A DNA stretch of 64,000 bases, taken from the NCBI RefSeq assembly GCF_004843725.1, contig NZ_CP039451.1, positions 308,501 to 372,500 of the forward strand, read 5' to 3'. Source of the stretch: Psychroserpens sp. NJDZ02 (GTDB lineage: Bacteria; Bacteroidota; Bacteroidia; Flavobacteriales; Flavobacteriaceae). Below are positions 1 to 37,936 of this stretch, in pieces (position 1 is the stretch's first letter; each line of letters starts with the position of its first letter). Under the pieces are notes generated by a model. It searched no databases. It had not been told where the DNA came from and worked only from the letters and a program-made list of their open reading frames with translations. Made by a program: the position numbers and the translations under genes.

Positions 1-53
1 TATGATATATGAGAGTGATAGAGGCTGCAAAAGCTAATTCAATACTAATTAAC

Positions 54-126
54 AACTTGACTTTGTCTTTTTTTTAAACTAACTTCGTTTAACTTCGAAT
101 AAAACTCATTAAAACGGAATCTTATT
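54..126 (+). repeat. Direct repeat copy A, ahead of the HEPN-like gene
   Basis: This stretch recurs almost base for base at 2114-2186, with about one mismatch; weaker similarity reaches back to about 30 and forward through the GTTATGC core. It includes a T8 run and the phrase AACTTCGTTTAACTTCGAAT. Both copies lie just upstream of unrelated genes and both run into GTTATGC. That is the pattern expected of the 3' half of a cassette recombination site shared across an array, though a mobile promoter or leader element is also possible. Confidence 0.85.
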
Positions 127-134
127 CGCTATAT

Positions 135-141
135 GTTATGC
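135..141 (+). other. attC-like core site (GTTATGC) at the cassette start
   Basis: The heptamer fits the integron core consensus GTTRRRY. With the three following bases it reads GTTATGCTAC. This is the exact reverse complement of GTAGCATAAC, which is re-formed at the other end of the gene once the group II intron is removed. Complementarity between the first bases of a cassette and the inverse core of its own attC is a hallmark of integron gene cassettes. No integrase gene is in the window, so this remains an inference. Confidence 0.55.
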
Positions 142-147
142 TACATT

Positions 148-1029
148 ATGACAGAAACTATTAGATATGGATGTTGGCTAATCGATAATGTTAAATTTTC
201 GGGCGAAGATTTTATCAAAAAAATTGACTTCAATGGTAGAGAAATTGAACTTTTAATTACAAACTACGAAAACTCTAAACATATAGAAGAACCATTTCAA
301 GATTGGATTTATAATAAAATCATAAATGATGGAATGATGAATTCAAGAAATAGTCCTTTACCTATTAAATCAATATTTGTCATAACAAAGAATGGATATG
401 AAAACAAAAACGCTTCGGAATTTTCATTACTCTTTAAATTGTGTTTAAAGCTTGTCTATTTTCAACCAACATTAGTTTCGCACACATCTGAATTTATTCC
501 TAATGCTGCCATTACTATGCCTACTTGGGAAGGTTTTAAAAGTGTTACAACATCTTCTCAAACTGAAATTAATTCAAAAACTTTTGATAAAGTATTATTC
601 TATTTTGATACACTAAATAAATTAAATATTAAACATAGTAGCATTCTTGAGGAAATTTATAAAATATCAGGAATTAATGATGTTTTAATTGAGTTATTAA
701 GTCTTTACTCTTTTATAGAAGGGTTTTGGTGGAACAAAAAAGGAAAATCTAATCTTACAGATAGTTTTTTAGCAATGCTAGGACAAGATTACGCACCAGG
801 ACGAGAAAACAAAACAAAAAGAGAAAATATTAAGAGCATTATAGAAAGTCAAAATGGATTATTGAGAAACCCTAAATTAGACGATATGCGACATATTTTA
901 GCTCACGGAATGTATAAGCAGGAAGAAGATTCTTGGAATGAAAAACAATGGAAAGCTATTTATCAGCAAAGAAATCTATTACTAGAAATTATAATTGACT
1001 CACTAATAAATAAAATTAAAAAAACGTAG
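148..1029 (+). CDS. Hypothetical protein with a HEPN/Apea-like C-terminal motif
   Basis: I do not recognise the family with certainty. The N-terminal two thirds is a mixed alpha/beta region without a clear motif. The C-terminal third is helical and carries DDMRHILAHGMYKQ. This resembles the R-x(3-4)-AHG motif of Apea-like HEPN domains, which occur in phage-defence and toxin RNases. No signal peptide or membrane segment is visible. An in-frame ATG five codons upstream (133) overlaps the GTTATGC core, so I prefer the start at 148. The stop codon lies inside GTAGCATAA, so the gene fills a cassette-like unit, and a group II intron follows five bases later. The HEPN reading rests on one motif. Confidence 0.6.
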   Translation: MTETIRYGCWLIDNVKFSGEDFIKKIDFNGREIELLITNYENSKHIEEPFQDWIYNKIINDGMMNSRNSPLPIKSIFVITKNGYENKNASEFSLLFKLCLKLVYFQPTLVSHTSEFIPNAAITMPTWEGFKSVTTSSQTEINSKTFDKVLFYFDTLNKLNIKHSSILEEIYKISGINDVLIELLSLYSFIEGFWWNKKGKSNLTDSFLAMLGQDYAPGRENKTKRENIKSIIESQNGLLRNPKLDDMRHILAHGMYKQEEDSWNEKQWKAIYQQRNLLLEIIIDSLINKIKKT

Positions 1030-1843
1030 CATAATCGAGTAGACGGCTCCGACTAAAATAGCCGGAGTGCGCCTCTCACACCACCGTACATACGGGTCTC
1101 GTATACGGCGGTTCGTAAATCATCACGCCAAAGCTCTTTTCACCCTTGACACTATCTTCTAATTTAGGCATAGGCTACCACTAGTGCTCCTATGCGAATT
1201 TTGAAGAGAATTACGTTCAGTCCTTCCTTACTTGTGAGACCTTCTGAGGTATTGCCTCAACTCGTTTCCTGTAAGTACTATGACTTCTGCTGACTTCTCC
1301 ATATAGTCAACTCGTAACTTTGGAGACCTCCCCAGGTAATGGCATCCTCTTTCACTCAATCACTGCCGTATCTACATAGTTACCCTTTTGGTACTGTTTG
1401 GGCGTTACAATGATGTGCTTGCTTACCCGAATAACTATGCCTCTGTATACGATTTCTGTTCGTCAGTACCGAGTTTTGTAGTGGTATTTGCTCATTAATC
1501 AATCACAAATAGCCTTCAGATGTAACCTCGCGATTACCACCCTTGCGACTTACTAATGCTTCAAGACGTTACTCCTGCGCATAAGGGACTTGCACCCTCT
1601 AGATTAATTATTTACCTTTCCGTAAATTAAAAGATGCCCATGCTGGGCACACACAATGTATATAAAACATAGCTATTATAGGTTTTACCAAAGGTTTTTG
1701 TGTGTTTTCGGAGACCGCCAAATTTTTAAATTTGGCTTTTAGAACAATAAAGATAAAGAGAAAAATTTAAAAATTTGGCTCGTGTATAATCCGAAACGAT
1801 AGTGTCTTTTAACACGCTACGTTTAAAATACGAGACGTTAAAC
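1026..1843 (+). other. attC-like recombination region, interrupted by the intron
   Basis: Joining the sequence left of 1034 to that right of 1652 gives GTAGCATAACAATG, matching the RYYYAAC inverse core plus the AA that often follows it. Downstream is a strong imperfect hairpin. GCCAAATTT and AAATTTGGC (1717-1736) flank a two-base loop, and an inverted copy of the same block lies at 1763-1779. The region closes with GTTAAAC at 1837-1843, another GTTRRRY heptamer. The size without the intron, about 200 bp, is large for an attC but not outside the known range. No integrase is present to test it. Confidence 0.5.
1034..1652 (-). mobile_element. Group II intron RNA without an open reading frame
   Basis: On the minus strand the 5' end reads GTGTGCCCAGCATGGGC, matching the GUGYG start of group II introns, and GAGGGTGCAAGTCCCT follows in domain I. 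Near the 3' end is a domain V-like hairpin, CCGCCGTATACG paired with CGTATGTACGGTGG. A domain VI-like stem, CTCCGGC/GTCGGAG, follows, and then the end CTACTCGAT. The domain IV region encodes no reverse transcriptase, so mobility or splicing would need a maturase in trans. The 5' exon ends in TTGT and the 3' exon starts TATGC, recreating GTTATGC. That is the target geometry described for introns that invade attC bottom strands. The subclass is not assigned. Confidence 0.8.
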
Positions 1844-1847
1844 GCCC

Positions 1848-2186: not shown

Positions 2187-2207
2187 TGTTATGCGCTACA
2201 AGCTATT

Positions 2208-2957
2208 ATGAAACAAAAACTATTAATACTCTTATTACTATTTATAACTATAGCTTCTAATGCTCAAAAGTTAGAGAATTGTTCAGAATGCTCTTCTATC
2301 AAATATTCTGAATCAAACATAATAACTAATGAATTGTTTGAACTTAAATTATTGAGAAATGAAATTTTTGCAAGACATAATTTCTCTTTTAAAAACGAAA
2401 GGTTAGAAGAATATTTCTTTAACTATGATTGGTATAAACCTGATTATAAAAATCCAGTAACACAAGTAAATTTAAACGCCATAGAACAATTTAATGTTAC
2501 ACTTTTTAAGAGGAAAGAAGAAGAAATAAAAAGAAACAGAGAATTACTACTTACTGAACTAGGAAAATTAAAAATTGCAATAAAAGAAAACGACAACTCT
2601 TTTATTAGTGATTTTACAAACGGTGTTATAAAAAATGACAACAAATCTTTACTAAAAAAAATAAACTCTATTCTTGAATTAATCGATATAGAGAATATAA
2701 ATTGGCACAAAGGTCAAGCTAAATATGAAATATTGATTGATAATGGATTTTCAATTTCTTCTCAAGGGATATATATCAAGGGAAATTCAATAACCATAAT
2801 GAGCACAGACCCTATGACGCACTCTGATTTAATGAAAAATGATGCTGCTTTTAAATATCCAAGTGACTATTATTCTGAGTTTGAAAACTCAAGTGGAGTT
2901 GAAATTATATTTAAAAATGGTAAGTTAATTGTAGTAAGTCTGATTTTTGCGGGATAA
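2208..2957 (+). CDS. Secreted YARHG-domain protein
   Basis: The first 20 residues (hydrophobic core LLILLLLFITIA, ending SNAQ) form a typical signal peptide, so the protein is exported. Residues about 45-100 form a YARHG domain: LRNEIFARHNFSF is followed by LEEYFFNYDWYKPDY and a downstream NAIEQFN stretch. YARHG domains are extracellular modules, probably cell-wall or peptide binding. The rest (about 105-249) is a charged helical stretch followed by a beta-rich segment of unknown family. There is no lipobox cysteine at the cleavage site. The gene sits alone between cassette-like repeats and may be a cassette gene; its cellular role is unknown. Confidence 0.75.
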   Translation: MKQKLLILLLLFITIASNAQKLENCSECSSIKYSESNIITNELFELKLLRNEIFARHNFSFKNERLEEYFFNYDWYKPDYKNPVTQVNLNAIEQFNVTLFKRKEEEIKRNRELLLTELGKLKIAIKENDNSFISDFTNGVIKNDNKSLLKKINSILELIDIENINWHKGQAKYEILIDNGFSISSQGIYIKGNSITIMSTDPMTHSDLMKNDAAFKYPSDYYSEFENSSGVEIIFKNGKLIVVSLIFAG

Positions 2958-3737: not shown

Positions 3738-4220
3738 TTGTTTTTAGTTTTAATTTCCTACTCTATTAAATAAAGGCTTTTCAGATTCCACCTTTACCAC
3801 TAAAAGAAAAAATAGTAGCTACTCAATCGAATATTTTTCTTTTAATTACATTATAAATGTATAATGATATTGGATTACTTTTTAGAGTATAAATACCTGA
3901 TTTAAAAAAATGTATTTATACTTAAACCTACTATTTCATATCATTGGACAATTCAGAATTAAGAATTAAGAAATTGAATTATGAAAGCATATCATTAGTG
4001 TTTGATATTTGTAAATGAATGTAAGCATCTTAGCTATAAAAGAAAAAAGAGCATAACAAAAGATAAACTACTATAGCGGTTTAATGCTTTCATTCCAGTT
4101 TTGTATCTTTATCAAAGCGCAATGACTAGTCGAAACATTAAAGCTTTTAATCTCAAAAAAAATCATTAAACAAAACCCTAAATATCGAATCCACTCAAAA
4201 AGCAAAGCAAAAAAGTTAAA
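3738..4220. other. Non-coding intergenic region between divergent genes
   Basis: No gene is visible. A long A/T hairpin lies at about 3802-3843 (TAAAAGAAAAA against TTTTTCTTTTA with AGTAGCTACT in the loop); it could be a terminator or upstream structure. The final 55 bases before 4221 match the leader of the pseudogene copy at 1848, and the similarity starts at TTAAAC (4166-4171). Confidence 0.5.
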
Positions 4221-4853
4221 ATGAAACAAACAACACTTATAATCACAACTTTCCTATGTCTTACTTTTTGTTTTTCTCAAACGCAAAAAGAGGTCATTAA
4301 TGGCATAGAATTTAAAATTGTTACTGTTTCAGTGGATGAAGATCAGCAAACTGACTTTATTGAATTATACAGAAATGATAAAAAACTATTACAGCATACG
4401 CTATATGAAAGTGATGGTGACTGTAGTAGTGAAAATATTGAATTAGGAGCCTATAAAATTATAGATAACAGGTTGATATTCTATTCCTATTGGGCAAGTG
4501 CAGATAGAATGATGAAAAACATCTATCCGTATGGTTTTAGAAAACAGATATATTACGTCACCCCAAAAGGCTCTGTAAGTTTAGAAAGCTCACAGCTTTA
4601 TATCGAAGCATATGTAGACGAATGGAATGTACACCAAGGCATGCAATACTTAAACAACAAACCAAAAACGAACGAAGAAAAAGCATATCTAAAGGACTAC
4701 ATCTTAAAAGCAGAACAAATGTATGATGGTCATTTTGTTATTGGAGAAAACAAATCTATATTAGAAAATGAAATCCGACAAACACTAGCTGAAGCTATTA
4801 CCGAAAACACAAAATATTGGAAAGCTGTTTATGGCGACAATTGCAAAATGTAA
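4221..4853 (+). CDS. Secreted hypothetical protein (intact paralogue of the 1848 pseudogene)
   Basis: The N-terminus (TTLIITTFLCLTFCFSQ) is a clear Sec signal peptide cleaved near residue 20. The mature part of about 190 residues begins with a VINGIEFKIVTV strand and DEDQQTDFIELYRNDKK, and is alpha/beta with many aromatic residues. Residues about 150-205 are helical and charged. I do not recognise a family. A frameshifted, truncated copy with the same leader lies 2.3 kb upstream, so the gene has been duplicated locally and one copy has decayed. It probably acts in the periplasm or at the cell surface. No partner gene is adjacent. Confidence 0.65.
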   Translation: MKQTTLIITTFLCLTFCFSQTQKEVINGIEFKIVTVSVDEDQQTDFIELYRNDKKLLQHTLYESDGDCSSENIELGAYKIIDNRLIFYSYWASADRMMKNIYPYGFRKQIYYVTPKGSVSLESSQLYIEAYVDEWNVHQGMQYLNNKPKTNEEKAYLKDYILKAEQMYDGHFVIGENKSILENEIRQTLAEAITENTKYWKAVYGDNCKM

Positions 4854-28796: not shown

Positions 28797-29771
28797 ATGA
28801 AAACAATCAAAAATTTATCCCTCGTATTTTTAGCATTTGTTACATTATGGTCTTGTAGTGACGATGACGATGCAACAACACCGACAACAACACAAGAATT
28901 GAATATTGTCGAAACCGCACAAGCAACTCCAAGCCTAAGTATTTTAGTAGAAGCTGTTGTGCAAGCAGGATTAGTAGACGCCCTATCGGCTTCAGGAAGT
29001 CGTACCGTATTAGCACCAACCAATGACGCTTTTACCGCATTTTTACAAGCAAATGGTTTTGCTACACTTGCAGATGTTCCAAATGACGTATTACAAGAAA
29101 TTTTATTAAATCATGTTATTGATGATGCAAACATCATGTCTTCAGACTTAGCAGGAGCGACAGGTTACACCAATACATTAGCTTCAGGACCTAATAGCAC
29201 AAATCTGAGTATCTTTTGGGACGGAACAGACGGTGTCACTTTTAATGGTGCATCAAGCGTGGCACTAGCAGACATTTCTACATCAAACGGAATTGTACAT
29301 GTCGTGGATGCCGTAATTGATTTACCAACTATTGCAACTTTTGCAACAACAAACCCAGCGTTAACTAACTTGGTTGCAGCATTACAATATGCAGATACAG
29401 GTATGCCAACAGTACCTTACATTGACACTGTATCAGATGCAACAGCTGGACCATTTACAGTATTTGCGCCAACTGATGCTGCTTTTGGTAACCTATTAGT
29501 AGAATTAGAAGTTGATGCATTAACAGATATAGCTACATCAACTATAGATGCCGCATTAACCTATCATATTGTAAACGCTAACGTGCAATCATCAATGTTA
29601 GCTAGTGGACCAGTAACGACTCTTGGAGGCGATCTCACTGCCGATGCGACACTTTTTACACTTACAGATGTAAATGATAGAGTTAGTAATATAGTTACAA
29701 CATTAGTGGATATTCAAGCTGTAAACGGTGTAGTACATGTTATAGATAACGTATTATTACCGCAATTATAA
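28797..29771 (+). CDS. Fasciclin (FAS1) domain lipoprotein
   Basis: The signal peptide ends in LWSCSDDDD, with the lipobox cysteine followed by aspartates, a surface-export-like signal in Bacteroidota lipoproteins. Two FAS1 domains follow. The first has TVLAPTNDAFTAFLQANG and then GIVHVVDAVIDLP; the second has FTVFAPTDAAFGNLL and then GVVHVIDNVLLP. FAS1 domains mediate adhesion to surfaces or carbohydrates. I start at MKTIKNLSLV because it begins the lipoprotein signal. The gene is monocistronic, with a strong hairpin terminator downstream. Confidence 0.93.
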   Translation: MKTIKNLSLVFLAFVTLWSCSDDDDATTPTTTQELNIVETAQATPSLSILVEAVVQAGLVDALSASGSRTVLAPTNDAFTAFLQANGFATLADVPNDVLQEILLNHVIDDANIMSSDLAGATGYTNTLASGPNSTNLSIFWDGTDGVTFNGASSVALADISTSNGIVHVVDAVIDLPTIATFATTNPALTNLVAALQYADTGMPTVPYIDTVSDATAGPFTVFAPTDAAFGNLLVELEVDALTDIATSTIDAALTYHIVNANVQSSMLASGPVTTLGGDLTADATLFTLTDVNDRVSNIVTTLVDIQAVNGVVHVIDNVLLPQL

Positions 29772-29811
29772 AAGACACATGTTTTAACAATCTACTAGTT
29801 TGACTAAATAG

Positions 29812-32676: not shown

Positions 32677-34302
<1,626 letters not shown>

Positions 34303-37791: not shown

Positions 37792-37837
37792 ATGTTATTT
37801 ATACGTTTCAAACTGCGTTAGCGGTTGTAATGGCATC

Positions 37838-37869
37838 CTTTTTTTTGCTGCCATATATGGCAAAAAAAA
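37838..37869. terminator. Bidirectional terminator between guaA and the LysM gene
   Basis: A self-complementary GCCATATATGGC is flanked by T8 on the left and A8 on the right, so it forms a hairpin with a T tail when read on the minus strand after guaA. Confidence 0.7.
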
Positions 37870-37936
37870 GATATAATGAAAAACGCGACCCTTGTGGTAA
37901 CGCCCTAAATTTACTTTGATTATTATAAGCCTTTTT

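Follow-up and report, generated by a model that had tools for sequence, protein, structure and literature searches.

ORF-less group IIC introns at the attC-like sites of an integron-like cassette system in the flavobacterium Psychroserpens sp. NJDZ02

A 64,000-nt stretch of the Psychroserpens sp. NJDZ02 genome (hereafter the window; positions 308501-372500 of a single contig of 4.32 Mb) contains a short intron lodged at the end of a gene, and raises the question of whether an intron lacking a protein of its own has settled in the recombination site of a gene cassette and, if so, what could move either of them. Window coordinates are used below for this locus and genome coordinates for all others. 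A re-check of 1034-1652 and its flanks gave the sequence as described in the initial annotation. The unit begins at 135..144 (+) with the core GTT and 7 cassette-specific bases (GTTATGCTAC), and its gene follows at 148..1029 (+); the open reading frame is listed from 133, and the ATG at 148 avoids the core site. The first part of R'' (GTAGCATA, 1026..1033, +) is followed by the intron (1034..1652, -), past which an AC at 1653-1654 continues R''. The remainder of the attC-like site (1653..1836, +) comprises an L'' side, variable hairpins at 1717-1779 and an L' side, and the core GTTAAAC that starts the next unit lies at 1837..1843 (+). With the intron taken out, the plus strand reads GTAGCATA plus AC, which complements GTTATGCTAC (135-144) without a mismatch, so that the claimed restoration of GTTATGC, and with it of a 10-bp complement to the cassette start, is exact at the sequence level. 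Besides this pair, a 16.6-kb scan around the locus gave three exact 10/10 start-end pairs, two of which are T-rich runs. R1, a model of attC-like sites built from sites other than that of the window, matches 1645-1846 (+; 31.1 bits, E 6.7e-5), and this match together with an inverted repeat (I2) backs the remainder of the site.

The reconstruction agrees with intron-free relatives of the same cassette. The window gene has relatives of 90% aa identity in Meridianimaribacter flavus (L154), 74% in a Fluviicola MAG (L155) and 49% in a partial sequence (L156), and the first two are intron-free (GTTATGCTAC...GTAGCATAAC and GTTATGCTAA...GTAGCATAAC, respectively) with GTTATGC intact. In M. flavus the cassette, with both of its 10-bp ends, lies downstream of a chromosomal gene (L154 3998-4900), and an R1-type attC body was found on neither side of it. 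The Fluviicola MAG has the window cassette with a different attC body, as does another cassette at a further locus (L119). Judging from these three loci, joint travel of the gene ends and the attC body is not universal. As to whether the unit consists of ends and gene without the body, one pair moves with the body, and another pair (79% identity, in another genome) shares the ends and the gene only.

At the cut-offs used, NCBIfam, Pfam and PADLOC had no family for the gene itself, and its earlier label 'HEPN-like' was dropped on that account. Ahead of it stands a 117-nt leader repeat (41..157, +) with a second copy at 2101-2217 (84%) and 11 matches in the genome, counting both window copies. 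A second cassette-like unit (2188..2957, +; core GTTATGCGCTAC) carries a YARHG-domain gene (2208-2957), and a search for its matching end found none. Between the two units, 1850-2092 repeats the beginning of the gene at 4221-4853 in truncated form (82-88%), and the end of a similar fragment sits ahead of the leader repeat at genome position 305760. The window also contains a DUF805b RNA (3755-3794, -) and a Flavo-1 RNA (37807-37894, +), both above the Rfam gathering score. The window array is degenerate on its left: R1 does not recognise the left side of the cassette, where a different repeat is found, and at E < 0.01 the model has one match in the window (1645-1846) and one at genome position 304635, the sites being degenerate. 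No recombinase of the 393-aa kind described below was found at genome positions 290-372 kb.

Group II introns are recognised by conserved domains I-VI, a GUGYG 5' end and an AY 3' end. The window intron (619 nt, minus strand; GTGTGCCC from 1652...CTACTCGAT to 1034) carries this end signature (GTGTG...GAT), and three Rfam models tile the interval 1034-1652 that had been read as a group II intron: RF02001 (1340-1537, 112.7 bits), RF01998 (1220-1318, 41.9 bits) and, for domains V-VI, RF00029 (1034-1113, 38.6 bits, just below the 40-bit cut-off), whose match ends at base 1034. Domains V and VI thus located (1034..1113, -) include a bulged A in domain VI (ACUCGAU end), and the last 81 nt of the intron fold at -39.9 kcal/mol (z -5.1). 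With a longest open frame of 43 codons, the intron is indeed without an ORF. Group IIC introns encode a class C intron-encoded protein (IEP) that has RT and X domains but lacks an endonuclease domain. The RT, which is present in relatives and not in the window copy and was classed by its nearest structures, shows RVT_1 and GIIM domains only, has TIGR04416 as its best family (344 bits) and is nearest to the GsI-IIC RT (308 bits), then to chain D of 7uim (297 bits), which we take to be class C, and to LtrA (122 bits). The domain V fold, read by eye, has a CGC triad and a central G.U; CGC, not AGC, is the triad given for group IIC in the accessible part of PMC7923331. Because class C enzymes are the closest to the RT and domain V has the CGC triad, any class other than C is ruled out, and the reservation in the initial annotation that the intron might not be class C falls away. 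The window intron is a complete, ORF-less class C group II intron.

How such an intron could move was approached through its relatives in the same genome, in 437.5 kb of stretches lying mostly around matches. These held 43 related 5' ends and 59 related 3' ends. Among the 41 copies with both ends, 31 are ORF-less (546-716 nt, no frame above 87 codons) and 6 (1851-1855 nt) have an intact class C RT, with an uninterrupted 436-codon frame containing YADD; one copy of 1794 nt has no frame above 62 codons, and three are short or decayed (174, 291 and 453 nt). The ORF-less copies might all be dead, having arisen by separate RT-gene deletions or by passive copying along with cassettes, and be immobile. 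The short or decayed copies would fit this explanation, as would the few duplications of host cassettes and the description of IEP-less introns, in the accessible part of PMC4424553, as rare in bacteria and devoid of retromobility. However, the full length of the window intron, short domain IV included, is matched at 82-100% by 28 of the ORF-less copies, which occupy many different cassettes. Moreover, a FastTree phylogeny of 38 copies, rooted at the midpoint only, groups these 28 on mostly short branches and keeps them separate from the 6 RT copies, which lie on another branch (0.976) together with a second, long-branched trio of ORF-less copies. One cassette is present twice (971473-972511 and 1221937-1222973; 99.7%), in one array with a 644-nt ORF-less intron and in the other with a 1852-nt RT intron at the same place. 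This twin also speaks against dead copies and could reflect a separate insertion, although replacement could give the same result. We therefore consider it unlikely that the ORF-less copies are dead. The family of 28 looks recently spread, and its mobilisation in trans by the RT copies would be the simplest reading. The proposal that the RT must be supplied in trans was strengthened insofar as six intact RT-bearing relatives in the same genome rule out the need for an RT from outside; that they act in trans is what we infer from this arrangement.

The junctions of the copies pointed to a common target, with ...TATACACG(G/T)TGT as the usual 5' exon: the last four bases are GTGT at 20, TTGT at 16, ATGT at 3 and other at 4 of the 43 5' junctions, 39 of which end in TGT. 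At the 3' side, T follows the intron at 58 of 59 junctions, one 3' exon having no T start. For pairing with 3-5 bases of the 5' exon, a loop reading CACAUC or CACACC is a candidate EBS1. Intron 5' ends occur at 28 of the 87 R1 sites found in the genome, all of them on the strand opposite to the cassettes and none on the same strand, which extends to all 28 copies the orientation first noticed in the window. The remaining 15 of the 43 5' ends lie off R1 sites, several of them at sites that are longer (~185 nt) or degenerate and of a type from which R1 was not built. The lineage was found in 20 of 149 genomes of the family, this one counted and other genera included, and at 11 of 19 loci with related introns elsewhere the R1 match ends at the intron 5' end. 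Class C introns have T-runs as their other known target, and one relative in another genus (L138 1501) has a T-run, and no attC-like site, in front of it.

The sites themselves have the layout of an integron attC, that is, a palindrome with R and L boxes and GTT/AAC cores, as judged from alignment and folding. They come in two sizes, ~124 and ~185 nt, with a consensus of their own, which for the short type is R'' - AAC ACC GTRTATAAT...TTGC - variable part - GCAACTAA...ATACAC...ACG - GTT R'. For the 17 base pairs proposed in the R and L boxes, an alignment of 22 sites has standard pairing in 87.4% of cells, as compared with 78.2 (sd 1.4) after shuffling and 22.7-34.5% after sliding. Ten of the 17 pairs have two-sided changes, and these are compensatory in both helices; together with the R1 match, this bore out the attC-like target that had been proposed for the window intron. 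Two intron-free sites, folded as bottom-strand DNA, gave z values of -2.9 and -2.3. A two-part PWM returned 61 rows, corresponding to 57 distinct sites, and 0 in one shuffle. R1 sites are present in 129 of the 149 sampled genomes of the family and in 50 of 295 genomes in the class.

We then asked what could recombine these sites. The integron integrase model TIGR02249 matches three places in the genome. Two of these were assigned to XerD, at 335.5 bits and above the cut-off of that assignment, and to a XerC-like gene, whose 302.7 bits fall short of it. A tyrosine recombinase of 393 aa (1217661-1218839, +), which precedes an array, reaches 195.6 bits against TIGR02249 (cut-off 265), with model positions 178-238 unmatched: the IntI insertion is absent, residues 182-244 of IntI4 facing 18 residues of the 393-aa protein, and the same short loop without the insertion was seen in 26 correctly extracted members of the recombinase family, this one included. 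The enzyme is accordingly not an IntI-type integrase with the additional domain that characterises integrons. Its nearest relatives by sequence and fold are archaeal XerA-type enzymes (4a8e, 5hxy), IntI4 being third; it differs from XerA-type recombinases in its linkage to cassette arrays and its extra N-terminal part, and the genome has XerD and the XerC-like gene separately. R231, K256, H320, R323, H346 and Y355, presumably the catalytic residues, are invariant in 15 aligned members. Recombinase homologues (E 1e-40 or better) were found in 100 of 149 genomes of the family. In 18 of 20 recombinase neighbourhoods, picked for long contigs after several links had already been noticed, the gene is followed by same-strand arrays, with a total of 166 R1 sites listed on the strand of the recombinase; the two neighbourhoods with no R1 site were L121 and L134, the latter of 4.3 kb only.

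An attI-like site was found by sequence beside the recombinase gene at 14 of the 18 loci, or in 14 of the 20 neighbourhoods picked, as well as in this genome: a GTT start 36-235 nt past the gene matches R'' of the first cassette at 9-10 of 10 positions. Three of the 18 loci give 6-7 of 10 only, and at one the site lies 1952 nt away; the chance of such a best match was put by a simple estimate at ~1.5-11% per locus. A core resembling ATATAACYA followed by GTT is common to 11 of 15 loci. In the 437.5 kb covered of this genome, six attI-like cores (ATATAACTA followed by GTT) start arrays, 0.45 being expected in shuffles, and the end of the first cassette matches at 9-10 of 10 positions at each of the six. 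A stretch resembling the end of the recombinase gene precedes five of the six cores; the gene itself stands beside one only. The cores without the gene lie at 29380, 568352, 956680, 3856101 and 4256623, and the first four follow such a stretch. Arrays seem to have spread with their own attI, and one recombinase may serve them all. The platform is called integron-like because its attC, attI and cassette features are those of integrons and its recombinase lacks the IntI domain. As an integron in the strict sense it is incomplete, the only candidate integrase found not being of IntI type.

CALINs are clusters of two or more attC sites that lack a neighbouring integrase, and the arrays could be ordinary CALINs derived from a canonical IntI integron elsewhere, with the Xer-like recombinase as a bystander. 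It should be considered that, XerC-like gene and XerD apart, no recombinase gene was detected outside the 1218-kb cluster in the stretches fetched, and that integrons are on record in Bacteroidota or the Bacteroidetes/Chlorobi group in the accessible parts of PMC8618304 and PMC2426708. However, the same-strand arrays after the Xer-like gene in 18 of the 20 neighbourhoods, the attI-like core with its closely matching first cassette end in 14 of 18, and the gene-end stretch before five of the six cores, as if left over from full platforms, all point to the Xer-like recombinase. A search for canonical IntI pointed the same way, giving no TIGR02249 match at E 1e-60 or over cut-off in 149 genomes of the family, with the proviso that the control matched nowhere and absence is thus unproven. 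The bystander explanation appears quite improbable to us.

In integrons, the start of a cassette (TTRRRY) is complementary to its own R''. Here, 33 of 63 pairings of an end with its nearest start match at 6-8 of 9 positions, as against 6.6% for all pairs (mean 5.27 vs 3.12, sd 0.17), and other genomes, in the neighbourhoods covered, have 6-7 of 7 positions matching for 104 of 135 pairs, as against 3.3% for all pairs (mean 5.66 vs 2.54, sd 0.12); this accords with the flavobacterial cassette array that had been proposed. Pairings remained unmatched in 30 of 63 cases here, part of them because attI starts are absent from the start list, and in 31 of 135 elsewhere. One cassette is duplicated: 960717-961109 is identical to 29389-29781, the homology begins at GTT, takes in the gene end and the attC body with no mismatch as far as the next core, GTTGGC, and fades within ~30 nt past it. 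To the left the two copies are unrelated, one being preceded by an attC-like site and the other by an attI-like core. The boundaries of this cassette are of the integron type. By sequence, the units are gene cassettes with G^TT boundaries and complementary R''/R', and they would be mobile. A chance origin of the cassette ends is ruled out by the pairing statistics and the duplicated boundaries, and it is hardly credible that the sites are chance or house-keeping repeats, such as promoters or terminators, with coincidentally inverted ends, even if their hairpins could serve as terminators, which IIC introns favour (PMC4424553, accessible part), and the leader repeat stands ahead of two genes here, since the complementarity is cassette-specific, the duplicated cassette begins exactly at the core and changes are compensatory in both helices.

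Taken together, these results make it very probable that the window intron and its relatives are non-autonomous group IIC-attC introns, mobilised in trans, in a little-recognised flavobacterial integron-like system, whose splicing, mobility and recombination are predicted from sequence features. The intron RNA would be transcribed in the direction opposite to that of the cassette genes; with the RT of the six relatives it would splice and reverse-splice, recognise the folded bottom strand of an attC-like site together with a short IBS1 (usually GTGT or TTGT), and insert at R'', after TGT and before T. The same site would serve a real cassette of an integron-like array for recombination, the platform comprising a tyrosine recombinase that resembles XerA, an attI-like site close behind the recombinase gene, and arrays whose cassettes carry attC-like sites. 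Since the inserted intron parts R'' from L'', the cassette would be locked until the intron is lost. The family would then be an apparent case of a bacterial group II intron spreading without its own protein, whose trans-mobilisation is directly testable.

Group IIC-attC introns are described in PMC7923331, in its accessible part, as inserting at R'' of the attC bottom strand (TTGT/T), opposite to the cassette genes. Ours resemble them in the class C RT of the RT-bearing copies, the hairpin target, the R'' bottom-strand site, the orientation and the occurrence in arrays without a neighbouring integrase. They differ in being mostly RT-less, with 28 forming a family of their own, in numbering tens of copies in one genome, in their flavobacterial host, in having GTGT as IBS1 as often as TTGT, and in a recombinase that is not IntI. 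With bacterial ORF-less group II introns, as far as the available text of PMC4424553 goes, they share the lack of an IEP and the presence of RT-bearing relatives in the same genome; unlike those, which are called rare and non-retromobile, they make up 31 of the 41 copies with both ends here and are near full size. From the accessible parts of PMC8618304, PMC9024848 and PMC9668308, the platform is like integrons, including sedentary chromosomal ones, in its tyrosine recombinase, attI-like site, one-orientation arrays of short genes, palindromic attC-like sites with variable R''/R' and conserved L boxes, and complementary cassette ends. It is unlike them in a recombinase without the IntI insertion, with an extra N-terminal part of ~95 residues and transcribed toward the array, and in its attI-like core and its ~124/~185-nt sites with their own consensus. 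New to us are the swarm of RT-less introns, the flavobacterial host and the platform without an IntI-type recombinase. Among the matches listed from the open-licence literature, by titles and the starts of abstracts, there was no description of flavobacterial cassette arrays with such introns, and no open-licence paper was found that has Bacteroidetes integron attC and group II introns together. The accessible part of PMC8352920 describes attC models built for 11 taxa, Bacteroidetes not among them; that of PMC3552965 does not mention attC; and that of PMC9024848 gives only In0 for Bacteroidetes before one complete integron in Salinibacter ruber.

We further lean, with less assurance, towards the wider view that most Flavobacteriaceae harbour an unrecognised class of integrons, with a XerA-derived recombinase without the IntI insertion, whose sites would feed an autonomous IIC intron, the RT-less derivatives that it mobilises, in a SINE-LINE-like relationship, and insertion sequences. 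If this is true, recombination of folded single-strand sites arose, or is feasible, in a second way without the IntI domain. If the system is active, it would be a large and little-noticed route of gene exchange in Flavobacteriaceae and a natural test of the need for the IntI insertion.

Other elements also lie at the sites. A second element ends at the same attC-like point as the intron, on the side examined, at 33633, 572517, 963905, 1228628, 3251383 and 3498500; the one copy read carries a DDE transposase (PF13751), and we take the element to be IS1182-like. At a further locus, a transposase gene of the IS110 family (PF02371, PF01548; L043 8472-9464, -) sits inside the L' half of an attC-like site, within an element that is presumably IS1111-attC-like. 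Three sites of the Psychroserpens genome, near 965.5k, 973.3k and 3551k, break off with the same letters as this insertion.
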